Positions 1-63,632 of a DNA stretch of 64,000 nt are shown here, piece after piece. The position numbers were made by a program, and so were the translations under genes. Every line of letters starts with the position of its first letter. Within the stretch, counting starts at the first letter, position 1. Below the pieces are notes generated by a model. That model saw only the letters and a program-made list of their open reading frames with translations, was not told the origin of the DNA and searched no databases. The DNA is from Siphonodentalium dalli (Eukaryota; Mollusca; Scaphopoda; Gadilida; Siphonodentaliidae). The stretch lies in assembly GCA_032622095.1 (NCBI GenBank), contig CP136067.1, positions 95,532,707 through 95,596,706 on the forward strand, read 5' to 3'.

Positions 1-34
1 GTGTTTAACCCTTTACCCAACAGAACGGCCCTGT

Positions 35-103
35 GCCAATGCATTCTCTTATATATGCGAGTCGACCATAGGTCGCCTCGCATATATAAGAGAATGCATT
101 GGC
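35..103. repeat. 69-bp near-perfect palindrome, A1 left
   Basis: A 27-bp perfect outer stem (GCCAATGCATTC... paired with ...GAATGCATTGGC) is followed by one mismatched pair, a further 5-bp stem (CGACC/GGTCG) and a 3-nt loop. The sequence is identical to the palindrome at 8110-8178 and is the exact reverse complement of those at 182-250 and 8250-8318. It could extrude as a cruciform or, if transcribed, fold as a ~33-bp hairpin. Confidence 0.95.
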
Positions 104-181
104 TTAATACATTAAAAATTATAAAATTGTTAATGAATGTAAGAAAAAATGGTAAAAAGTGTTAAAAAAAGTTTTTTTTAG

Positions 182-250
182 GCCAATGCATTCTCTTATA
201 TATGCGAGGCGACCTATGGTCGACTCGCATATATAAGAGAATGCATTGGC
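182..250. repeat. 69-bp near-perfect palindrome, A1 right
   Basis: Exact reverse complement of the palindrome at 35-103. The two are separated by a 78-bp A/T-rich spacer containing a TTCTTACATTC-like stretch on the minus strand, so 35-250 is itself a large inverted repeat. Confidence 0.95.
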
Positions 251-403
251 ACAGGGCATAACTGTAACTATCACAATGTGGTCAATGAGCCGGTTCCAAT
301 GATATCCATATTTGTATGGTTTTATTGAGACAGACCCAAGATAATTTAGGCTGTTGCAGCTTTATTTGGCCGGTTTTGGCCGGTTTGTTGGGTAAAGGTT
401 TAA

Positions 404-2872
404 TAGCGAGTTTACGATTTCAAACCGGTAAGGGTACGGGTACGCGTACGGGTAGCTACCCGTACCGGTACACGTTTTGTGATCGCAAACTGTTTTACGG
501 TAGAATTTATCACATCGACTGGTAATGTATGGTGAGCCAACTGCAACAAAAAAATATTATAATATAGATAGATTGTTATTCGCATTCGCTTTATTGGCCG
601 ATCTTATACTTACCTTTATGGATTGTCGGAAAATTTTATTTCGATTAAATGGGCCTGATGATAATCAGTTGCTTTCATTAAGGACGAGGAGGCAGTTAGG
701 TGGGGTTGGTGCTTTTCTATCACTCATCTTTGTAACATTTTCAACAATTGGATTCTAGAAGTCATAAGCCGATCGAGTGTTGACTATTAATCGGTTGGAT
801 GATAGCTCAAATATACAATTACGTTATAGTTAAATTTTCCAACCAATATTCGGTGTAAAATGTATTGTTTTAGACCCATGTACTTTCAGTCAGACATAAG
901 ACCGAATTTGTCCCTTGTTTTAGTTGGGGAATATTTAGTCATATTAAGTAAATAATGATTTGAATGTTTCAACAGATCGAAGGGTCGGGGCAAGGGAATA
1001 TTTATCCCAAGAATGGGGATTTTTTCTGGATCTAAACCCGGAGGCAGGTTGAAAAGTTAAAATTGATAAAATTTGCTAAAATGTAGTCTGTTTGTTATAC
1101 GGATTGAATAAAGAGCGTTTACTTCGAAACACAGAAAACAGCTGAAACTCGCTCAGATTATGCTTAGATTTTGTAGAGTATGTATAGGTATTTCGTGTCT
1201 TTAGCGACCTATATTATCCCCACTACAATATACACCAGTATTGTGGTTCAAATGTGCCATGTATGTTCAGATGGTAGATATATTTTAAAATGAGAAATCA
1301 GTCCCGACCTACATACGATAAAGTAACTAAACGGTCGTATTCAAATGTGCAATACATGGATAAATCCACGATATATTGACGCCCTTGTACAAAGGGTTGA
1401 GACAGGAACGCGACAACAGGGGCATCTCACCCCAAACTTGGTCAAATGCTCGATATACCTGACACAACAGTTCTTGGAAATTTTACACCAACAGTAGGTT
1501 GAAATTGTTCTCGTAGTTTGATTTTCCAACAATTTATTAGTGGAGAATTTGTAGTTTTTAGACCAACATTTGCATTTTTCCTATTTTTGGTAAAACATTT
1601 GGACTGAAGTGGCTATCAGAAACTGTTGGAAATTGTCCAACTTTTGGGGTGTCAGGTCTCAAAATGTCCAACAAATGGAAAGCTTGATGCCAGTCTGGAT
1701 GCTAGGATTTAGCAAATTTCATGTTCGGATTTCAAATATTTCTCACACCGGGCCGAACCATGGTCGATCCGGTGAGTCAGAAAGTGATAATTAATTTAAG
1801 GAAAAACAAAACAAATATGGGTGAATTTGCATGACGTTAGACCACTAGATATTAGGGTTGTTCAGGCTCAGATCTACACCAGTTGGGAAAAATCAAAGAC
1901 CAACGGGGAAGAGGGTGCGTGCAAATGGAATAACGCGCAAAATTGTGAAATTTATATGGTTCAAGGGTGTAGTTAGAAGGTGGACACCCCTCCTAATGCG
2001 GAAACAATCTATAGCCACGTCCCTGTAATGGGTCGAGACTGCGTCTATAGCACCATCTACTCACTCTATTAACAACAATCTGTCTAATGCGGTGAACAAC
2101 GTTGTTAGTGAAAAGATCGGCCTTCCGTATTTATATAAGTGCTGGATGCCGCCTCTAGAATTTGAACATAAAACCTGGCTTAAAAAATGACAACTTTATC
2201 AATGATGTTTGCCCATGACATCTTGCAATAAATAGGTTAACGCATAGCTGACTAGAATTTCACGTAATTCATCAACCTTTGAGTGAGAAAATCGTAGTGA
2301 AAGGTTACCGGTAAACGGGTCACATCTACCCGTTCCAAATCGCCATCGCTTTATGAGCTGCATTGAAAGTACCCAAGTGACCGTGACGATATTCACCTAT
2401 TTAACCCGTACCCGTTCCTGTCGGACGGGTGTCGCAAACTCGCTAATATATAGAGCATGGTTTGCAGTTGACTACCCACTGGGCACTAAACCCAAAATGA
2501 CAAGACATACATGCTCTATAATTATTATATTTCACCGAACAATTCGAACTTGTAGCATGAATATTACATCACTACTGTATCCAACCAACACAAACTGCTG
2601 GAATTTTCAAGTTTTCAAAGAAATAAAGTAGACCTCGTTTTACTGAGAACAAATATCATTATCCATGCAAACACTTTTAACACTTATTGTCGCAGAAATG
2701 TCTTGCAATATAAAAGTAGTTTAAAAAGTCAAAACGTTAGTATTTAAGTTTTATATTGAATGCAATAAGCCCAGAAACTGTACCACAAGGTGATTTCCAC
2801 CGAATGTTGTCATGTCGCAAGTTTACGTCGTACCTCTGAAAAACGTTAAAAACGGTAACGATTAATTTCATT
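404..2872. other. Intergenic, no gene recognised
   Basis: AT-rich sequence with only short open frames and no splice-bounded coding block or known motif. A short alternation of GTACGGGTACG and TACCCGTACCGG near 430-470 forms a small inverted repeat. Around 1600-2060 a motif (GGCTATCAGAAACTGTTGG) recurs, diverged, near 19690, suggesting an old dispersed repeat. Confidence 0.6.
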
Positions 2873-3128
2873 TGGATACGACTTTGTAAATTGGTGTATA
2901 CATTTCCGTACATTGTATATATTTTCCAGACTTAGTAAATTGTTGGATACATCTCCGTACATTGTAGATATTACTGACATTTATTAGAAAGGTGGATACC
3001 ACTCCGTACATTGTATATATTGCCGACATTTACTAAATTGTGGATACCATTCCGTACATTGTATATATTGCCGACATTTTGTAAATTGGTGGATACAACT
3101 CCGTAAATTGTGTATGTTACCGAAATTT
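2873..3128. repeat. Minisatellite, ~62-bp unit x ~4
   Basis: Diverged tandem copies of a unit built on GGATAC...CTCCGTACATTGTATATAT...GACATTTA(C/G)TAAATT. The CCGTACATTGTA core occurs four times, with a fifth more diverged occurrence, at ~60-bp spacing. Confidence 0.8.
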
Positions 3129-5913
3129 AGTAAATTTTAGTATAATTATATTTGTTCGAGATTGTTGCCCCTGCTCATTCAGTTGTGCTTGCGATTATGC
3201 ATGGTATATAGTTTTCTCAATTTAGCTCAACATTATACCATATAGGAGACAGCTCTCGACCAACCAGAAGGCGAAATTTCTTGGTGGAGTGAAATATATC
3301 GTAACACACAGCTACTAAACATTGTCATATTAAAACACGTATAACAAGGTTTAATTTATATAAGTCCCCATCAAGTAACATATACATAAAACATGGTTCT
3401 TAACTTCACGAAAGGAAAAAATTTATAAGTCCAAAAAATGTGGCCAGGACAATATATCGTAATGCACATCGACTGAACCAATGTTAAAAATTGTCGTAAA
3501 ATAAATAAAGATAAAGATCTTAAAGACCCACGTGACAGATTGTACTCCACAATACACCACATACTATACGCTTTTGAATTTGGCCCGGTATCGAAATAGG
3601 TTGATAAATACTCTTACTACATTTCTACGGGCATAATATATGTCCTATATATAGAAGGACGTATTGAAGTCATAAAAAGTGCAACTTTGAACAAGGTGTT
3701 TGGATTCAAAACAAAAAACATCCACGTGCACAGCATGGAATAGAAAAGAGCGTTCCGTGTTAATCTATTCTGATATGGTAGAAAAAAGCGTTTGTTCCAC
3801 TTCTGTGCGAAAAATTAAAAACAACTTTTGGAGATTGTTTGGTTGAATATATTAAGGGAAATTAATAAGACTTTGCTCACACACTGGAGTTATAATTTAA
3901 AAGATAGGAAATTGTATGGCCAATAAGACTCATTTGGGTAATATGTTTGGTGTAATGGCACATTTTGCGAATTTATGAGGGATAGGGCTGTTGTTGTCGT
4001 GTTTTGTCAAATGATGGTACATTTTGGTATCCCCCAGAGACCTGTGGTCACATCGTCTCGATAATGGACATTGTCTTGTCCGACCACTTATTGCGCGGGT
4101 CTCCGATAGTGTTGTTATGGGGCATGGTGTAACCCTTACGTTAGCTGTTTTAATACTATGAGTTAACTTTAAAGAAGCCCCTTCATATTGTGCAACTTAT
4201 TTGGTCAAACATTTCCGAACAACAAGTGAATAAATCTTGATGATTAATTTCAATCAATGTTACACTCGATATTCGCAGTTAATGTGTAGGCAACACAGAC
4301 ACACTCTTTGAAATATCAATTTGTATTGTTTTGTTGGTTGCCGACAAAGGTTCAAAATTCAAAAGATGCTGCAAAAAGATGATTGGACATCTTTATATTT
4401 AAGTCAAATAGACACAATTTAAAAATAATTATTTAATACATAGGAGGATTTTGATTATTATAATGGTATGAAATTTCTAATCCACTCGTGTGGTATATCT
4501 ACATATGAAATTGATAAGAGTTGATCATTTCAGGTTCGATTGGGAGTTGAAGTTGGGACTACTTATTTGGGCACACCCTAGCTGCCAACTTCAACCGCTT
4601 TCCACAGCAAATAAGCATACGATGTGGGGCGGAATATCAGAAATGGGTGGACAATTCTACTAAATATAACGAGAAAACATGCAGGGCGGAATAACAGTAC
4701 TGGGTGGTAACGTCCAACACGGAAGCAAGTCAGTTTGTTACACTATACCACCAATCATATTATATTTAGCCAACTACAATGCTCCACCACATTGAGTGTA
4801 TATTATCTCAACTTGAAAAAATATACATGGGCCATATATGTCGAAAATTAGAACATTTCAGAGTAAGCAACACTGTAAAGTTGCTTGAAATGCAATGGGA
4901 TCGGATTCAGAACACGTTATGTTGTCATAGAAGTTCTTTGCCTGACGCGAACGATGGCTCGTACACATTTGGTATATCCCTGCAGTATAGCTAGCACGAA
5001 AATCCCAATTTTAAATTAACATATTGTCCCAAATGAGCACATTAAATTGTGGCGAAATTTCCAAAAAATAATAAGCATGCGGGTATGCTTATCTTGGATT
5101 ACAAGAGTACGTATACATTCACACACTGGTAAGTTTGTCAGGTATTTCGTCATAGGATTCCAGAATATGATCGGTGACAACATGCGAATGAAATTCATCT
5201 TTACCAAAGTTAACGACATAAGGAGTAAACTTTCTGTAGTTCCAAATAATTATAATATACCATTGACATTCAAATATCTGTATGGTTGTTGATTTTTGCG
5301 AGGACGGCGCCTGATAATGTCGATAGCATAGCTACTAGTGTAATTACATAGTGTTGACTTGTTACGTAGTTATCTTGTATAGATGCATTTTAAGCATTTT
5401 AACGTTTGTTTTCCGGCACGATAGACACCTTTCTCATAATGAACGAGAACATACATGTATTATTATTACGAATAGGGTACTACGTCACTAGCATTTGGGT
5501 TCTTTCAATTCGTTGTCATTTTTTCCTATCCGTTGTTACGATTACGATTACGACTACAAATAGCTACTTGTAATAATTATCTGTTGTCGTTCTTTATGCG
5601 AAAGGTGTATAGTATAGTTTATTTTGTCGAAATTCCTGCACATATGCGAGTGTGTGGGTGCGGCCTAAGTCGCCAACAAACCTCCATATTTTGGTCTTCG
5701 TCCTCTTTACGGAGCTTCACCTTGAATACACTTGACAAGCAGCTATGTGCCTGAAATGGATGACATACAGCTGGGTGTCTTGAAATGTTTTTTTTTAACA
5801 ACTGTGTGTATAGGAATGGAAATAAATGAATAAAAATAAATACAGCTAAGATGTATATAATGCAACATACCTGTTTCAAATTACTGTAATATTATACCAC
5901 ATGTATCAAAAAC
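3129..5913. other. Intergenic, no gene recognised
   Basis: No convincing ORF. A small duplicated phrase (GGGCGGAATA(T/A)CAG..(A/T)..TGGGTGG) is seen at ~4626-4650 and ~4684-4710. The rest is unassigned AT-rich sequence. Confidence 0.5.
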
Positions 5914-5986
5914 AAAAAATTACCCCACCCCAATAATACTTAATCATATAGGATTACTGAGCATTATTGGGGTGGGGTAATTTTTT
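5914..5986. repeat. Hairpin, 24-bp arms
   Basis: AAAAAATTACCCCACCCC... at 5914-5938 pairs with the reverse complement at 5963-5986, leaving a ~24-nt loop. It may be a very short MITE remnant. No target duplication was seen. Confidence 0.85.
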
Positions 5987-6456
5987 GTTATGGGGACCTG
6001 TGCATTAGACTCTATGGCATTCGATTTTCAATTTATTAATCACAAAAACAAAAACAAAATACTAAAAACGATCAATCCGTTTTAATCCCATTCCAACTAC
6101 CTCGAAACCGTTCTACTTTTCAGCTAACTCCTATAGCTCCTACACTCGGTCGCATCTAGCTAGGGGGGCTTCTCTGTTGACCCCTCTCCACCAGCACCAT
6201 ATTATAGCGCGCCCCTAATTACCTGCCTTCTCTAAACAATAACATGGTGTTCATCAACTCTTGAAATAAATTAACATATCGAGGGTGGTGGAAAAGATCA
6301 TTTGATCCTTTCGAACACATCAGGCGATGTGTGCCAACCCTCGTAAAACTTTATCACATACAACCATGTTATAACATGACGGGAGCTGCGCTGACGCAAC
6401 ACTAAAGACACTTTTTTAATTGGGTTGGTTTGGGGTAGCTAGCCCCGGGATTGTCG

Positions 6457-6476
6457 AAAGGGCCGAAGGGCCCTTT
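6457..6476 (-). other. GC-rich stem-loop near the retroposon 3' end
   Basis: AAAGGGCC at 6457-6464 pairs with GGCCCTTT at 6469-6476 around a 4-nt loop, downstream of the AATAAA signal on the minus strand. A second small stem (GGGG...CCCC around GCTAGC) follows. Such 3' stems are recognition elements in some LINE/SINE partners; that role here is inference. Confidence 0.5.
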
Positions 6477-6547
6477 CCTTAATCCCTCATGTTTTTGCTT
6501 TTATTAGAAATACGAGGGGGGAAAAGGATAGCATTTTTCTGTTTGGA

Positions 6548-7059
6548 TTAGGGTTTTTTTTTTCTCTTCTTCTTAGAGTTAGGCTTTTCTGTCGAAGATT
6601 GTGGAGATTTCAGTTGTTGTTGTTGTTGGTGTTGTTGGATGATATCTGCAATTCTTTGTTCTTGTTCTTTTTGAATTCTTTCTAGTTCTCTTTTTTGCTT
6701 TTGATCTTCTCTCAGGCGTTCTTCATCTTTTTCTCTCCATTTCTTATCTTGTTCTTCTTTCCAATCTTCGAAAAGGTTGTTGTTGGTGCTGGTGGAGCTG
6801 GGGGACACCGGAATGTGTTGGTAATCCGGTGTCCGAGGTGTAAAGCTGTCCAGTTCCACGTCGAAGCTGGCGGCAGGAACATCTGGGTGGTATCCACGTC
6901 CCTGTCTCCGCAAGCTTCGACGACGACAGCAGGGACCTCCGGCAGATCCACGGAATCCCTGCTAGCTGGTATTATGTCGTCAGTCTCCATGCAGGTCGGG
7001 TCGTCTGGGCGTCTCTCAGACAACTCCGGCCTGCCGGCTATGACTCTGGATGGCTGAGC
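6548..7059 (-). pseudogene. Broken coiled-coil ORF inside the retroposon
   Basis: The minus strand shows an acidic, proline-containing N-terminal part (with ETDDIIPASRDSVDLPEV) in one frame down to about 6915. A second frame takes over after that, down to the stop at 6548-6550. A single frameshift near 6905-6915 would explain the switch. The second part has a Ser/Thr/Asn-rich linker, a strongly charged heptad-like helix (EDWKEEQDKKWREKDEERL and onwards), a polyglutamine run and a lysine-rich basic tail resembling a nuclear localisation signal. There is no ATG at the 5' edge, consistent with truncation. The charged helix and basic tail recall C-terminal regions of Myb/SANT-like proteins, but this is a weak resemblance, not an assignment. 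Confidence 0.55.
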
Positions 7060-7074
7060 CACTAAAGACACTGC

Positions 7075-7143
7075 GCCAATGCATTCTCTTAAATATGCGA
7101 GTCGACCATATATCGCCTGGCATTTATAAGAGAACGCATTGGT
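7075..7143. repeat. Diverged 69-bp palindrome, family B left
   Basis: Same length and layout as the palindromes at 35-103 and 8110-8178, but with several substitutions (for example TTAAATATGCG and GGCATTTATAAG) that break the stem at matching positions. Confidence 0.85.
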
Positions 7144-7495
7144 CCAACAATTTGTTTTATCATTTTTTATAAATCTTTCTTACATTCTTTAACAATTTTT
7201 TATAATTTTTTAATTTTTGCTTACATTCTATGCCAATTTTTCTTATATTCTTTAACAATTTTAGAATTTTTTAGAATTTTTTCTTACATTCTATAACAAT
7301 TTTTATCATTTTTTAGAATTTTTTCTTACATTCTTTAACAATTTTATCATTTTTTTATCATTATTTCTTACATTCTTTAACAATTTTTTAGAATTTTTAT
7401 CATTATTTCTTACATTCTCGGACAATGTTTTATAATTGTTTTAATATTTTCTTACATTCTTTAACAATTATAAAAAATAATATTAAATTTGTTAG
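7144..7495. repeat. A/T-rich array of TTCTTACATTCTTTAACAAT units
   Basis: About nine irregular copies of a ~35-45-bp unit containing TTCTTACATTCT(T/A)(T/A)AACAATTTT. The same phrase occurs once in the spacer of the A-family MITEs, so this is an in-place expansion of the spacer between the two palindromes. Confidence 0.8.
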
Positions 7496-7564
7496 GCCAA
7501 TGTATTCTCTTATATATGCTAGGCGACATATGGGAGACTCGCATATATAAGATAATGCAATGGC
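7496..7564. repeat. Diverged 69-bp palindrome, family B right
   Basis: Counterpart of the palindrome at 7075-7143 in reverse orientation. It carries its own substitutions (ATGTATTC, GATAATGCAATGGC) relative to the intact copies. Confidence 0.85.
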
Positions 7565-7615
7565 ACAGGGTTTTCGAAAACATTCAGGAAGCTCCCATGA
7601 TTCCACGCTCTGTTG

Positions 7616-7639
7616 CCCCCCCCCCCCCCCCCCCCCCCC
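7616..7639. repeat. Poly-C run of 24
   Basis: An uninterrupted homopolymer next to the end of the decayed MITE. Its length may be unreliable for sequencing reasons. Confidence 0.95.
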
Positions 7640-7670
7640 ACTTGCATGGCACATAATTTATCGTTTTTGT

Positions 7671-7929
7671 TGTGACAAAGTTACCCAGATTCCTAAAATT
7701 GTGGTAAAGTTATCCCCATGAACCCCTGCCCCCTGCACTGCCCCTATACGCCATCCATATATACGCACCTGCTTTAATTTACGTTAATAGTACCGGTACT
7801 ATACTGTATAGCAGGTGCGTATATAGGGACGGTTCATAGGGGCAGTGCAAGGTGGGGACAGTGGAGCGCGTTACAAGTCCCTGTGCTCCAGTTATAAAAT
7901 GGTAAATGAGTATGATCACTTGGCAAAAC
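7671..7929 (+). repeat. Dispersed hairpin repeat R, copy 1
   Basis: Runs from TGTGACAAAGTTACCCAGAT to GATCACTTGGCAAAAC and is repeated in the same orientation at 8876-9129. Its centre is an inverted repeat: CCCCTATACGCCATCC... pairs with ...GTATATAGGGACGGTTCATAGGGGC around a short AT core containing GTACCGGTAC. No coding capacity. Confidence 0.85.
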
Positions 7930-8109
7930 TGAGTAGTAAATTTTCCTCAATCACTTTTAACCCTTTACCCAACAAAACGGCCAAAACCGGCCAAATAAAG
8001 CTTCAACAGCCTAAAATATCTTCGGTCTGTCTAAATAGAACCATACAAATATGGATATCATTGGAACCGGCTCCTTGACCACATTGTGATAGTTACAGTT
8101 ATGCCCTGT

Positions 8110-8178
8110 GCCAATGCATTCTCTTATATATGCGAGTCGACCATAGGTCGCCTCGCATATATAAGAGAATGCATTGGC
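8110..8178. repeat. 69-bp near-perfect palindrome, A2 left
   Basis: Identical to the palindrome at 35-103. Confidence 0.95.
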
Positions 8179-8249
8179 CTAAATAAAATCTTTTTTTTAA
8201 CACTTTTTTCTTACATTCTTTAACAATTTTATAATTTTTAATGTGTTAA

Positions 8250-8318
8250 GCCAATGCATTCTCTTATATATGCGAGGCGACCTATGGTCGACTCGCATAT
8301 ATAAGAGAATGCATTGGC
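8250..8318. repeat. 69-bp near-perfect palindrome, A2 right
   Basis: Identical to the palindrome at 182-250. Confidence 0.95.
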
Positions 8319-8348
8319 ACAGGGCCCTTCTGTTGGGTAAAGGGTTAA

Positions 8349-9918: not shown

Positions 9919-10566
9919 ATGGGGGTAAATTTAGGGGAACATATCGGCCATTGCTGCTTGAGCAGGATAAATCCGGGATTTTACGCTCTCCGGAGACAAT
10001 ATTCGGTGGTAAAAAAATTTATCAAATGCTATGGATATGAATGGGTAATGAATGGGGAGCTTGTCGTATTGACTGAACGAGGAATCCTTGGCCGACACAC
10101 CCGTGGCTATATCGATACCATTACTCGGATAAATGGGCTAAATTTGTCCGATTCCCGAGCGATGGTAAAACGGGAATTATCTCAAGTTGTCCTTAATGTA
10201 ATACCATTAACCATGAAGCAGGTGCGTATATAGAAGCGGCGTATATGTGCAGTGCAAAGGGGACGGGCAGCGGGGCGATTACAGGCCCCTGTGGAGGCAA
10301 TCTCTATATTCACCACGGTGCGTGCAGGGATCATTGGCCATACACGAAACATTCTATATTCGGACAGTATAGTGTTGACAGAAAAGAGTGTTCGACAATG
10401 TTTGATACGTAAATATACCCAATATGTCGGCACTTTAATTATCCGCAATAATGGTATATCTTCAAATAATATCGACTGCAACATCCAAGCGATCATTCTA
10501 GCTGCCGCCAGAAATTCTTTGATAATGACAAGGGATGGAAAGTGGAACAAAACAACAAACTGCTGA
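9919..10566 (+). pseudogene. Unassigned ORF pair in one frame, split by an R-repeat fragment
   Basis: An ATG-initiated frame (105 codons including the stop, 9919-10233) ends at a TAG lying in a fragment of repeat R (about 10217-10290). The same frame reopens and runs to 10566 for another ~105 codons. The first half contains INPGFYALRRQYSVVKKFIK and the second GIIGHTRNILYSDSIVLTEK. Amino-acid content is balanced, which is unusual for this window. One reading is a ~200-residue coding block interrupted by the repeat. I recognise no family, and the antisense strand is also open here (10182-10550), so chance is possible. Confidence 0.25.
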
Positions 10567-15692: not shown

Positions 15693-16149
15693 ATATTTTG
15701 TCCAGTAGAATGATTAATCGTGACGGCACACCAATAAGCAACTCAATTATCATTCAATTAGTTTAAATGTTATCAAGGAGCGATTGAGTCATCCTGGTAT
15801 TGTCATTTAGAAAGGCATACATTAGTAATATTATAATATTATTGAATATCAACGCTGGAGCAAAAGATTGCACAACGAATTTTGTCGGAAGACTGTTCCA
15901 TTCGCTGCTATATTATTAAGAGTGACATTTGGCTGTGCACTGGTATGCGCCGTCTTCTCATCCCGACGCAAATAAAGGAAACGTGAATATGTTACGGCCA
16001 TATACCACTATAATAGGAATTCAGGATGATTGTGCCTTACCTGGTAATGGGCTTATGTGTCTGATCTGATTATTTTCTGGTATTGAAAACGTACAGATTA
16101 TGGTTTCATGATGTCAAAATACAGGGAATCTTTAATGCTGAATACTTAC
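15693..16149. other. Probable intron or 3' flank of the receptor gene
   Basis: On the minus strand this follows the GTAAGT donor. A possible acceptor at 15933-15934 (GTGCACAG on the minus strand) would open a short phase-0 frame beginning PNVTLNNIAANGTVF, but it hits a stop after ~27 codons. No final transmembrane exon could be placed. Confidence 0.3.
16144..16149 (-). other. Splice donor of the GRL exon
   Basis: GTAAGT on the minus strand immediately after codon 353 (ACA). It matches the metazoan donor consensus and ends the exon in phase 0, as is usual for 3' introns of Gr-like genes. Confidence 0.75.
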
Positions 16150-17208
16150 TGTAGCATTTATTATGGCACAGCAGACAGAAGCAACAACAAGATGACCCAT
16201 GACGAACATCAGCCAGAATACACCCAGGATCCGATGAAGGGTGGCACTGCTCATGTAGAATATGAACTGGTAGAGGATAAGACAACAGATGGGAAAATCT
16301 GCTGCGAAAATCGACCCTATTAACCAGGAGAACGTGTCGTCCAAAATCTCGGTCAGTTCGTTGATATTCTCGTGCCAGCAGCGATATTTCGCGATATCCA
16401 CGGGTGAATCTTTATTATCTACGTCTTTTCGCAATGATTCGTTCAAGGAAAGATACTCCTTCGAAACTACGGCGAATAATAATAACGCTAGTGCAATAGA
16501 AAATGTCGTCACAACTGTTGCCGTAAAAGTACAAAATATTCCCAATCCTACGAAATAAGGTTCGTAACCGGATAAATACGCATTCGGCAGTGTTGCCGTG
16601 GTGATCATACGCATCATGTCTGTTGATAAAGCGCATCCCACAATTAGGCTGCCCGTATTGAAGACGATCATGCCGTTGCACAATTTCACAGCTACCATGG
16701 AGAATATTTTAATAAATCGGCGGTGCGTTTGTAACCCATATTCTTGCCATTTATCGAAGAATTTCGGAAGTAAATCCTGGTTGTAAAATGCCCGAAAAAC
16801 ACATAAGAATTTTGCGACATTCTCCAAGAACCACATGGAAAGCCAAAGGCGAAAAAACAGAAGAATGTCAAAATCTTCTTGTGCTCTGTAAACAGACAAC
16901 GAGCGAATAAAAGAAAACAACACAACAGTCCCTACAAAAACTGAATATATCATCAGCTTCCCAGTCTCCGTTTTCTGTGTCGAATTATTCTTTGCACGAC
17001 GGAAATAAAGTCCCGAAATCTTCAGAAACATAAATAATGTGCGCATATTTTGAAACAGCACCGTATCTGTGTATGCCATGCGGTTCTCGTCCGATATATG
17101 CTCTCCGTTGTTATTCTCTATTTCCCTGTCACCATTACAATCGGAGATTCTTCGGACAAACATACGTTTAATTGGCATCCCTGGAGAATGGTCCAATGCA
17201 CATACCAT
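16150..17208 (-). CDS. Gustatory-receptor-like (GRL) seven-transmembrane chemoreceptor, 5' exon
   Basis: A 353-codon exon of a multi-pass membrane protein. After a ~55-residue hydrophilic N-terminus comes LFMFLKISGLYF, like the start of the Gr/GRL family. Hydrophobic segments lie at ~85-103, 114-138, 168-192, 219-248, 293-318 and 326-352, making six of the seven helices. Before helix 5, YRCWHENINELTEILDDTFS resembles the conserved helix 4-5 loop. The ATG at 17208 has an in-frame TGA four codons upstream. The frame runs past ACA|GTAAGT at 16150/16149, a strong phase-0 donor, then stops after five codons, so the exon carrying helix 7 is missing. The family works as membrane ligand-gated channels in insects; the ligand and role here are unknown. 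No inactivating mutation is visible. Confidence 0.85.
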
Positions 17209-56343: not shown

Positions 56344-57682
56344 CGGGCTACAGAAGCTGCTGTCAATAGGAATTTTTTTTCACAAATTATTTTCTCTGAA
56401 CCGGGACAAAAAAGTTATATATTTTCTTCAACAAGTTTTGTTGGAAATCTATCTTTTAAAGCAGTTTACATGACGTGTTTGCACTATCATACGTTTCTCT
56501 AATGCCTTATTAGTTGAAACTAGTCTTGAAAAGGAGTGTCATCGACATGTTGTTGGAAAGGCCAACGTTTAGCAACCTATATGATATCTTAGCCCATGTA
56601 TACATCGCAATGTCCACTTACATCGCCTGTTGAGTACATTGTCAGGGAAACATATTGGATTTTGATATTGTTATAAAGTTGATCAATCGCCGGTCAATAT
56701 GTACGTAGAAAGTGCACAGAACTTTCTATTGTCGATGTATTGTAAAATGCCACTGAAAACGAAATTACTATCGGATAGCATCCCACGCGATGTAAACGGA
56801 AACCTATTCATTGTGGACTGGATACGAGGGGAAGGGTCAGATATAAGGTTCTGTTGATTTTAAACGCTTCTTGTTATGGTATTTAAATGTGAATTAAAAC
56901 TATTTGTTGCTTCCCAATGTGAGGAATAACTTCGGAAGGTAGATATATACTGGTAATGTTGGAGATTCTTCTGTATAGGACATAACATTATAAATTGTGT
57001 GATTATTGTTTTTAATTTCTCTTATGAAAGGGAAACATGTTATAATGAAGGACTATTCCGTTCGCGTTGGAAATGCTTTTGGACAGCACATATTCGATCT
57101 TATATGGTCTGAATGGAAACATGATATTTTTCTCAGAAAGAGGGGATCTGTTATTGTATAGCACGCTATCACTTGCGACTATTCTGTTAACCATTCCATG
57201 AGTGGATCTTCCTGATTTATTTCGAAAAACCCTGTGCTAATGCATTCTCGTATATATGTAAGTCGACAATGGGGCGCTCGTGTATACAAGAGAATGCATT
57301 GGCCTAACAATATTTACCTTGACATTGTAAGTTAGTAGGCCCAGTACATTTTCTTATATAAGCGAGACTCCCTATGTGAGATTCGCAAATATAAGAGAAT
57401 GCACTGGCACAGGGTCGTTATCGCTGCACCAGCGCAGCTCTCCTAATGGACCCCCATAAAAGGTTAAATTGTTCTTCCCTGAAATAGCTTTTTTTTGCTC
57501 GGGCCAAAGAAAAGATCATGTGAATATTACAATAGCATGCATACCGGTATGTATAAATGTTATTCATACGTATCGCCATCATGATCTGCACATGCGTATA
57601 TGACAGTAGACGGTCGGTCATTGAATGAGACCTGATCTATGCCTATGTATATCCCTCTACATGTATTCATATATTTTGTATA
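56344..57682 (+). repeat. 1.3-kb dispersed duplication, copy 1
   Basis: Direct repeat of 62298-63632 with scattered substitutions and small indels. Runs from ACGGGCTACAGAAGCTGCTG to ATTCATATATTTTGTATAT and includes a family B TTAA element. No ORF conserved across both copies is long enough to suggest a gene. Confidence 0.9.
57191..57463 (+). mobile_element. TTAA-flanked MITE, family B copy B1
   Basis: 273 bp between TTAA at 57187-57190 and 57464-57467. The left end CCATTCCATGAGTGGATCTT and the right end in reverse, CCTTTTATGGGGGTCC, are only loosely inverted. Inside are two decayed 69-bp-type palindromes (57236-57303, ~57339-57408), linking it to the A-family elements. Non-coding. Confidence 0.65.
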
Positions 57683-58275: not shown

Positions 58276-58854
58276 ACGGGATAACAACTCATCAATCAGT
58301 GTTTAATATAGAAAGGATCAAACAACACAATCTGATTCATCGTATCACGGAGCCACATATATAGACGTTTATAGGAAAATCGGCAAATAAGGTGTTTAAC
58401 AATAGGAAGCAGATAATATAGAAACCAAGAAGAACATTTGAGCACCGTACCCCTTTAGTGTAAACAATATTTATTTCTACCCTCAAATAACATATAGAAT
58501 ATTTGTTTTACATATGTTTATGACATGATTTATGAGGATTAAGAGGATCTAACAACATCCGAGTCATTGCGTACGTTGAGTTATCTCCTTAGTACCCCTT
58601 TAAACAACATATTAACACACAGTACCACGAACCAATCAAGTCTCAAAACCAAAGCGGAGTATATGCGCTGTGGAAATTCACAATGCACTTTCAAAAATCA
58701 AAAATCGTTAAAAACTCATATTTTAAACTGATATCTACACGGGAAATATGTATCGATTGTATCTAGATTTTGAACATCAAACACACCGCAAACATTTACT
58801 AGATGTTCGATAAATGCATACAGTACCTTTCACTCGTAAGTACAGTATCTCATG
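58276..58854. other. Intergenic, no gene recognised
   Basis: Unassigned AT-rich sequence. Confidence 0.5.
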
Positions 58855-58860
58855 CAACAA

Positions 58861-59022
58861 ATACCTAGCACATTCACTGCATAATACCTAGCACATTCAC
58901 TGCATAATACCTAGCACATTCACTGCATAATACCTAGCACATTCACTGCATAATACCTAGCACATTCACTGCATAATACCTATCACATTCACTGCATAAT
59001 ACCTAGCACATTCACTGCATAA
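58861..59022 (+). repeat. Minisatellite, 23-bp unit x 7
   Basis: Seven head-to-tail copies of TACCTAGCACATTCACTGCA followed by TAA. Only one variant (TATCACATT, copy 6) is seen, so the array is very homogeneous. Confidence 0.98.
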
Positions 59023-59029
59023 TTTCCCG

Positions 59030-60018
59030 ATAGCAGCTATCCGGATGTTTGAAGCGACGGTTTAGAGATTATATTAAAGACATTATAGGTTTCTGGCCCT
59101 GCACTAGCAGCTATCCGGATGTTTGAAGCGACGTTTAGAGATTATATTAAAGACATTATAGGTTTCTGGCCCTGCACTAGCAGCTATCCGGATGTTTGAA
59201 GCGACGGTTTAGAGATTATATTAATGACATTATAGGTTTATGGCCCTGCACTAGCAGCTATCCGGATCTCTGAAGCAACGGTTTAGAGATTATATTATTT
59301 GCGTACGTTCCTGATCGTCCGAAGCAACGGGTTGGAAATTACATTAGTGACGCAGGTTTCGGAATAGACTCGTCCCTGGCTCAAATGTGAAACACTACGG
59401 CTCTATCGCTCTGTGCCCTCCCATAACGACGTCCAAAGCAGAGCAATGGCAAGGTTTATAGTCCGGGACCAGTCAAGTTCCTGAATGTCTGAAACGACGG
59501 TTTAGAGATTACATTAGCGACTTATGTTTCTGAATGTCTGAAGCGACGATTTGTGGATTACATTAGTGATGTAGGTTCCTGGACGTCTGAAGCAACGGTT
59601 TAGATATTACATTAATGACATAGGTTCCTGAAAGTCTGAAGCAACGGTTTAGAGAGTACACTAATGACATAGGTTCCTGAACGTCTGAATCAACGGTTTA
59701 GAGATTATATTTATGACATAGGTTTCTGAACGTCTGAAACAACGGTTTAGAAATTACATTAATGACATAGGTTCCTGGCCCTAAGATAGCAGCTTCAGAT
59801 ATCACGTTAGTTTCTTACCCTAAGATGTCTGTTATCCGAACGTCTGAAGCAATGGTTTTGATATTATAATAGGTAAGAGGGTTCCTGGACGTCTGAATCA
59901 ATGGTTTTGATATTATAATAGGTAAGAGGGTTCCCGAACGTCTGAAGCAATGTTTTTATATTATAATAGTTAAGAGGGTTCCTGAACGTCTGAAGCAATG
60001 GTTTTGATACTATAATAG
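59030..60018 (+). repeat. Minisatellite built on GTCTGAAGCAACGGTTTAGA
   Basis: First ~3.5 units of ~74 bp (TAGCAGCTATCCGGATGTTT, GAAGCGACGGTTTAGAGATT), then ~10 shorter 50-60-bp units (GTTCCTGAACGTCTGAAGCA, ATTACATTAATGACATAG), drifting to a GGTTTTGATATTATAATAGG form. The array resumes at 61588 after an inserted transposon. Confidence 0.95.
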
Positions 60019-60022
60019 TTAA

Positions 60023-62297: not shown

Positions 62298-63632
62298 CGG
62301 GCTACATCAGCTGCTGTCAATAGGAAATATTTTTTTCAAATTATTCCTCTGAACCGGGACACACAAAATATATATATTCTTGAAAAAGTTTTGTTGGAAA
62401 TATATCTTTTAAAGCAGTGTTTGCACTATCATATGTTTCTCTAATGTCTTATTAGCTGAAACTAGCCTTGAAAATGAGTGGCATTGACATGTTGGTGTTG
62501 TTGGAAAGGCCAATGGGAAGAGATATATCAACGTTTAGCCACCTATATGATATCTTAGCATATGTATACACCGCTATGTCGGCTCACATCGCGTGTTAAG
62601 TACATTGTCGGGAAAGTATATCGGATTTTGATATTGTTATAAAGTTGATCGATCGCGGGTCAATATGTACGTAGAAAGTGCACAGAACGTTCTATTGTCG
62701 ATGTATTGTAATATGCCAATGAAAACGAAATTAACATCAGATGTAAACGGAAACCTATTCATTGTGGACTGGATACGAGGGGAAGGGTCAAATATGAGGT
62801 TCTGTTGATTTTAAACGCTTCTTGTTATGGTATTTAAATGTGAATGAAAACGATTTGTTGCTTCCCAATGTGAGGAATAACTTCGGAAGGCAGATGTTTA
62901 CTGTTAATGTTGGAGATTATTCTGTATAGGACATACCATTATAAATTGTGTGAATAATTCTGTTTTTAATGTCTATTATGAAAGGGAGACATTTCATCAT
63001 GAAGTACTATTCCGTTAGCGTTGGAAATGCTTCTGGTCAGAACATTCCATCTTACACGGTCCGAATGGAAACATTTTATTGCCATTTGTCTCATAAAGAA
63101 GGGATCTTTTATTGTGTAGCACGCTATCACTTGCCACTATTCTATTAACCATTCCATGACTGGAGCTTCCTGATTTATTTCTAAAAACCCTGTGCTAATG
63201 CATTCTCGAATATATGTAAGTCGGCCATGGGGCGCTTCGTGTATACAAGAACATGCATTGGCCTAACAATATTTGCCTTGACATTGTAAGCGAGTGCATT
63301 CTCTTATATAAGCAAGACTCCCTATGTGAGATTCGCATATATAAGAGAATGTACTGGCGCAGGGTCGTTAACGCTGCACCAGCGCAGCTCTCCTAATAGA
63401 CCCCCGTGAAAGGGTTAAATTGTTCTTCCCTGAAATAGCTGTTTTTTGCTCGGGCCAAAGAAAAAGATCAGGTGAATATTACAATAGCATGCATACCGGT
63501 ATGTATAAATGCTATTCATACGTATCGCCATCATGATCTGCGCATGCGTATATGACAGTAGACGGTCGGTCATTGAGACTAGATATATGCCTATGTATAT
63601 CCCTCTACATGTATTCATATATTTTGTATATA
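62298..63632 (+). repeat. 1.3-kb dispersed duplication, copy 2
   Basis: Direct repeat of 56344-57682. Both copies contain a family B element at the same internal position, so the duplication happened after that insertion. Confidence 0.9.
63149..63414 (+). mobile_element. TTAA-flanked MITE, family B copy B2
   Basis: 266 bp between TTAA at 63145-63148 and 63415-63418. Left end CCATTCCATGACTGGAGCTT; right end in reverse CCCTTTCACGGGGGTC. Orthologous within the duplication to 57191-57463, and likewise contains two decayed palindromes. Confidence 0.65.

Follow-up and report, generated by a model that had tools for sequence, protein, structure and literature searches.

A pair of imperfect palindromes inside miniature transposons of Siphonodentalium dalli as a probable cis-acting amplification module

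Why should two palindromes stay identical inside transposable elements whose other parts differ? The question is raised by a stretch of 64,000 nt from the scaphopod mollusc Siphonodentalium dalli (assembly GCA_032622095.1, contig CP136067.1, positions 95,532,707 to 95,596,706 of the forward strand), here called the window, in which two TTAA-flanked miniature inverted-repeat transposable elements (MITEs) of one family, family A, each carry a pair of 69-bp palindromes. Positions refer to the window unless a locus (L...) or contig C1 is named. The original prediction was that the palindromes are invariant while the rest of the MITE drifts, and it proposed either upkeep by gene conversion or cruciform-mediated repair, or a functional hairpin. 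Drawing on the window, sampled loci and genome-wide pattern counts (2.23 Gb in 9 contigs), we read, with a probability of about 0.6, the palindrome pair as a cis-acting, dyad-symmetric amplification module of non-autonomous DNA transposons: lineages that multiplied seem to have kept their hairpins, and the hairpins seem to help the elements spread. The two window elements have the following parts.

5 to 403, plus strand: family A element with its TTAA target duplication (5-8 and 400-403); element proper 9-399
29 to 256, plus strand: core module, CCCTGT, palindrome, AT-rich spacer, reverse-complement palindrome, ACAGGG (same module in families B and C, half of it in family D; see below)
35 to 103, plus strand: palindrome 1, 69 bp, with a T/C mismatch and an ATA loop
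104 to 181, plus strand: AT-rich spacer of the first element, with 12 shared and 25 private variants among 36 copies
182 to 250, minus strand: palindrome 2, the exact reverse complement of palindrome 1
257 to 399, plus strand: right arm of family A
7957 to 8348, minus strand: second family A element with its TTAA duplication (7957-7960 and 8345-8348); element proper 7961-8344
8110 to 8178, no strand given: palindrome of the second element
8250 to 8318, no strand given: other palindrome of the second element, the reverse complement of 8110-8178

Both elements proved to be real TTAA-flanked MITEs, and their palindromes are identical between elements and reverse complements within each, as first described. 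The family A ends (CCCTTTACCCAACA ... TGTTGGGTAAAGG) are short, inverted and start with CCYT, following the rule given in PMC2872659, and the core lies off-centre in the element. Aligned with each other, the two elements differ by 13 substitutions in 382 sites: 1/26 on the left, 4/69 in the spacer, 8/149 in the right arm and 0/138 in the palindromes, or 13/244 outside the palindromes in total. If the changes were evenly spread, zero in the palindromes would have P = 0.003. The predicted figure of about 8 substitutions in some 149 bp on one side thus applies to the right arm, and the spacer differs as well. The predicted drift of the remainder, however, is mostly not private: ten of the 12 listed differing sites carry both letters in other copies, as subfamily variants do, and two do not. 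Since the contrast within the window pair is therefore mostly inherited subfamily variation, private and shared variants were then separated.

Forty-two family A copies (C1:0.1-6.9 Mb; loci L049-L088, L147 and L148) were chosen, with ends and length as the sole criteria. Exact TTAA flanked 34 of them on both sides, six on one side and two, as cut, on neither. Six copies were set aside as potential segmental duplicates, each having 8 flanking bases in common with another copy; two of these, L074 and L079, show 7 and 15 differences from their partners and could be independent. In the remaining 36 copies, with sites within 8 bases of gaps of at least 3 masked, the palindromes carried 3.74 private substitutions per kb at non-CpG and 17.9 at CpG sites, the right arm 4.09 and 15.5, the left side 6.4 and the spacer, which is AT-rich and hard to align, 9.4. 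The non-CpG rate inside was 0.91 times that of the right arm (95% interval 0.44-1.86) and 0.62 times that of all outside sequence (0.33-1.11). Hence, the palindromes are not frozen, and resident copies carry private changes in them at about the right-arm rate. Shared variants behaved differently: the 36 copies had 26 private changes inside and 55 outside, but 0 shared variants inside and 29 outside (Fisher p = 0.00019). When only the right arm was taken for comparison, at non-CpG sites, the private/shared counts were 16/0 in the palindromes and 20/15 in the arm (p = 0.0019). Equal divergence inside and outside, which the original prediction had named as evidence against itself, was thus roughly seen for private changes and not for shared variants. 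A set of 70 copies, which adds 34 (best matches, the second family A copy of L004, four random copies and the window pair), gave 29 private changes inside and 76 outside against 3 and 46 shared ones (p = 0.0024). Each of the three shared inside variants occurs in two copies, and two of them lie at CpG; variants present in at least four copies number 0 inside and 20 outside. A young burst from a few sources that happened to lack palindrome variants would go with the low private divergence of the A copies, about 4 per kb, but we regard this as very improbable given 29 shared variants outside to none inside (p = 0.0002) and the paired differences between families A and B described below.

In families A and B, differences in the palindromes and right arms are some three to five times as frequent at CpG sites as elsewhere, an excess that suggests germline CpG methylation of these elements.

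Could repair keep the palindromes alike? The 69-mer is an imperfect palindrome of two 33-nt arms around an ATA loop, with one T opposite a C five base pairs from the loop, and the predicted DNA fold has -35.4 kcal/mol (shuffles, -6.6 +/- 1.9). Gene conversion, or cruciform or template-switch repair, could hold such sequences identical in resident copies, and the identity within and between the two window elements speaks for it. So does a sample of 33 copies with fewer singletons inside (palindrome 1, 1.32; palindrome 2, 2.20; right arm, 4.91 per kb), and a mild deficit persists in the 70 copies (ratio to the right arm 0.64, 0.35-1.16). Most of the 33, however, were the best matches to a single element, mixed with a small number from other subfamilies, and the 36 end-selected copies supersede them. 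There the deficit is nearly gone, so that undersampled subfamilies are its probable source, and the lower inside rate of the 70 copies is likewise ascribed to them; CpG sites in the 36 copies decay normally. Without masking, 40 copies had 29 singletons inside, 16 in the right arm, 22 in the spacer and 4 on the left, part of the 29 being an indel artefact in L075. Repair of resident copies would predict scarce private changes inside, or changes on both arms or in both palindromes. Neither was seen: among the 152 palindromes of 76 copies, 43 pairs were changed on one arm and 0 on both, and 42 changes lay in one palindrome of an element and only 1, at a CpG, in both. Arm-to-arm repair should moreover erase the T/C mismatch, and the mismatch is kept, in 147/148 A palindromes and, in family B, in 41/43 copies of palindrome 1 and 39/44 of palindrome 2. 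Genome-wide, its T is changed at 576 sites with the rest of a 21-mer intact, against at least 87,632 unchanged sites (exact 69-mers); among the 100 changes listed, the stem-perfecting G accounts for 37, C for 38 and A for 25, without clear excess of G (G vs A p = 0.16). Upkeep by repair in resident copies is therefore not supported by the tests of private rates, of the two arms, of the two palindromes and of the mismatch site, and we consider it very unlikely.

Further evidence came from family B, a second and older family with the same core. Two palindromes were derived from 45 copies, 38 of which had been picked for likeness to one copy, and the mean divergence from consensus is 9.9%, including some 15 flanking positions. 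The A and B consensus sequences differ by GA/TC to TC/GA on both arms (pairs 29/39 and 30/38) in both palindromes and, in palindrome 2 of family B only, by A-T to G-C on both arms at pair 4/64. The proposed test for compensatory changes thus yielded five paired changes and one unpaired. Since the double change at pair 4/64 in palindrome 2 has no counterpart in palindrome 1, the constraint acts on each palindrome by itself and not on the pairing between the two. A B-type left arm with GA, GC, TA or TC on the right arm occurs at 10,565 sites genome-wide; the first 100 had the paired GA in 97 cases, GC in 2, TA in 1 and the A-type TC in 0. This agreement owes much to common descent and indicates that half-changed lineages are not common. 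Non-CpG decay in family B is 0.047-0.058 in the palindromes, 0.075-0.089 in the arms and 0.042 in the spacer, so that resident decay of its palindromes is somewhat below that of the arms and above that of the spacer. Together, the lack of shared variants inside and the paired A/B changes support a functional palindrome as a constraint on amplifying lineages. That part of the original prediction stands for source lineages, and none of the roles it listed (protein site, small RNA or enhancer) is singled out.

The exact 69-mer occurs 87,632 times in the genome (43,883 + 43,749; control 0). Elements with both exact family A ends and a total length of 372-402 bp number about 28,000 (28,057 forward and 28,076 reverse matches, which are not additive since each element matches the end pattern both ways; reversed control 0). 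In the only other length range counted, 152-182 bp, there were 34, and the five of these displayed all have different deletions. Deletion derivatives of family A thus arise, and those seen had not multiplied. Single copies that lost the palindrome centre by deletion were also found (L049, L062/L071 and L035). A viral origin was tried with a 30-mer of the palindrome, which had no exact match in viral_contigs.

We surveyed the window, loci L001-L008 and 20 evenly spaced stretches totalling 200 kb, and found the palindromes in four kinds of element with differing ends: family A (about 391 bp), family B (TTAACCCTTTCATGACTGGAGC..., about 260 bp), family C (TGTGACCCGCCATATCAAATCCAGTCGTAAGTCGGGA..., without TTAA and with ends that are not piggyBac-like) and family D (TTAACCCTTTGAGTGCCAGG..., 242-252 bp with TTAA, and one palindrome only). 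At least four families that differ in their ends, among them one lacking TTAA, thus carry the module. Families A, C and D and a single B copy share the identical 69-mer. Ten pairs ending in TTAACCCTTT (one mismatch allowed, ends alike) lie in the window plus the 200 kb, both window A elements among them; nine contain the hairpin marker, and BLAST showed diverged palindromes in the tenth. Twenty further loci with the exact 69-mer outside the family A list, classed by eye, comprised 7 A, 4 D or D-derived and 6 C elements, 2 with a C-type spacer and unrecognised outer ends, and 1 not assigned (L092/L093, L094/L095, L096/L099 and L105/L106 are duplicates).

A core of this kind could be a transposon in its own right, one whose terminal inverted repeats are palindromic and which entered several MITE families by insertion and was carried along. 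Its borders, CCCTGT...ACAGGG, are indeed sharp in A, B and C, and the inverted repeat extends inward (CTAACAATTTTTT/AAAAAATTGTTAG, seen in C). Yet no clear free core was found among the 20 loci above (three not assignable) or in the 200 kb, where weak matches at L029:7775-7927 were left unclassified. Exact patterns also revealed no empty A or C element: core-less family C gave 0 matches, and core-less family A gave 3, all resembling deletion remnants. Finally, a passenger should gain shared variants as the spacer does, and the palindromes do not. We consider this explanation possible, if unlikely.

Some observations concern these families and their surroundings. The inverted ends of family C are TGTGACCCGCC, with no clear target duplication, and its spacer can contain further sequence (GGACATAAAATAAAAAACATCC...GGGGCTCTGTATGGG) in both orientations (L005:713-1180, L042:3205-3690, L099, L105 and L107; reversed in L108). 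On C1 at about 0.84-0.92 Mb, a large tandem array has exact palindromes at eight places, 11,174-11,178 bp apart; the single 11.2-kb unit that was read (L095) contains a broken family A element. Family A elements at C1:742075, 756633, 771191 and 785681 lie about 14.5 kb apart, apparently in a tandem segmental duplication. The window holds three older copies of the core.

7069 to 7570, plus strand: older diverged core with its spacer expanded into a tandem array; right flank B-type by eye, then a poly-C run; borders approximate
57187 to 57467, plus strand: old family B element with palindromes at 57235-57303 and 57341-57409; borders by eye
63145 to 63418, plus strand: old family B element with two palindromes, within a duplicate of the stretch around 57187; borders by eye

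The array of the first (7163-7480) has a unit spacing of about 42 bp around CTTACATTCTTTAACAATTTT and is related to the family A spacer. Elsewhere in the window, adjacent tandem arrays with 23-bp and 49-bp units occupy 58837-60022, and an open frame of 358 aa at 16132-17208 (minus strand) resembles a multi-pass membrane protein by eye and has no Pfam match.

How might the palindromes act? A transcribed hairpin could yield a small RNA or long double-stranded RNA that favours the element, for example as a decoy against silencing. The RNA of the core is predicted to fold into one long stem (-155.7 vs -45.0 +/- 4.0 kcal/mol for shuffles), and the paired changes are compatible with RNA or DNA structure. 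This stem, however, consists of the two palindromes paired with each other, a pairing that family B has not kept at 4/64, and an Rfam scan of the window at the gathering threshold had no match. We rate such an RNA role as quite improbable. Under the amplification module that we favour, a protein would bind two half-sites; most simply this would be the mobilising transposase, through its C-terminal domains, or else a host factor common to the families. Only elements with intact dyad symmetry and asymmetry would multiply, and selection on amplifying lineages would thereby keep the symmetry, the fixed T/C asymmetry and the sequence. As shown above, resident copies do pick up private palindrome changes, while variants inherited through amplification are absent or rare inside and common outside. 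If the protein shifted and both half-sites followed symmetrically, the result would resemble compensation, so the paired changes are no proof of a folded hairpin. The genome has 128 matches to PF13843 (piggyBac), many with open frames.

Several points weigh against the amplification module. All 36 end-selected copies lie within a single 6.8-Mb part of one contig. In the 70 copies, the private non-CpG rate was 2.26 per kb inside and 3.52 in the right arm, and the interval for the ratio to all outside sequence (0.52, 0.30-0.88) lies below 1; a partial deficit of private changes inside, up to about half, is possible. The unpaired change of family B, at position 61 of its palindrome 1, turns G into A in about 24/44 copies. 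Two of the five short family A elements retain most of a palindrome, and the scarcity of short elements concerns the whole interior, not the palindromes alone; the search for core-less elements of families A and C was limited to exact patterns. Family D, with its one palindrome, indicates that the pair is not always needed. No transposase with family A ends was found in three 551-bp piggyBac flanks, in which no end was reached. The palindromes of family C are the same although its ends are not piggyBac-like. This is hard to reconcile with a site for a piggyBac transposase, and family C would be better accounted for by a host factor or by a function as RNA or as folded DNA. One could go further and propose a selfish module of paired imperfect hairpins that passes between unrelated MITE families (piggyBac-type and non-TTAA) within one animal, drives amplification of its carrier and is recognised in folded DNA form by a single common factor; functionally it would be a eukaryotic counterpart of bacterial REPINs. 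We regard this as speculative and decidedly unlikely.

What allows a few MITE families to attain copy numbers in the tens of thousands is an open question, and it is addressed here by a defined internal sequence with a signature of selection on amplifying lineages that can be separated from resident decay. The signature points to letters worth testing, and comparing private with shared variants is a general approach by which cis-acting parts could be sought in any MITE family.

Bacterial REP/BIME sequences are inverted palindrome pairs associated with TnpA-REP, and in E. coli they are imperfect, with a mismatch needed for activity (PMC8266576). Like these and REPINs, the present module is an inverted pair of imperfect palindromes, non-autonomous and in many copies; in contrast, REP/BIME are bacterial and 20-50 nt long (PMC8266576), and here the pair lies inside MITEs. 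The Y1 HUH transposase (PF01797) had 0 matches in the genome, whereas 5 of 14 control genomes were positive. In the ends of piggyBac and piggyBat, the transposase dimer uses two C-terminal domains to bind internal palindromes of 14-19 bp (PMC11707139). These are likewise internal dyad-symmetric sites, in which a symmetric half-site change would look compensatory. The original prediction took internal palindrome pairs like the present ones to be no standard feature of piggyBac MITEs. Shorter internal palindromes do exist in this group, but pairs of 69 bp are not known there: the ends described in PMC11707139 have palindromes of 14-19 bp and no 69-bp stems, and a mobilising transposase for the present elements is only a candidate. 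In open-licence literature, judged from titles and the beginnings of abstracts, we recognised no description of paired hairpins or palindromes in MITEs.

The closest precedent is provided by the CMITEs, piggyBac-like MITEs of Acropora corals with a TTAA duplication and mostly CCCTTT ends (Wang et al. 2010, PMC2872659). They form several families with differing ends and an internal region more conserved than the ends, for which the authors suggest a role in transposition (PMC2872659). The same pattern, an interior common to families with different ends, is thus seen there in simpler form: CMITEs are about 100 bp long with one internal region of 75 bp (PMC2872659), against about 391, about 260 and 242-252 bp for families A, B and D. 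This comparison is one of published description with the present core, and the words palindrom(e), hairpin and secondary structure are absent from the main text of PMC2872659. What is new beyond the CMITE pattern is the pair of 69-bp palindromes, the split between private and shared variants, the paired changes, a family without TTAA ends and a scale of tens of thousands of copies.

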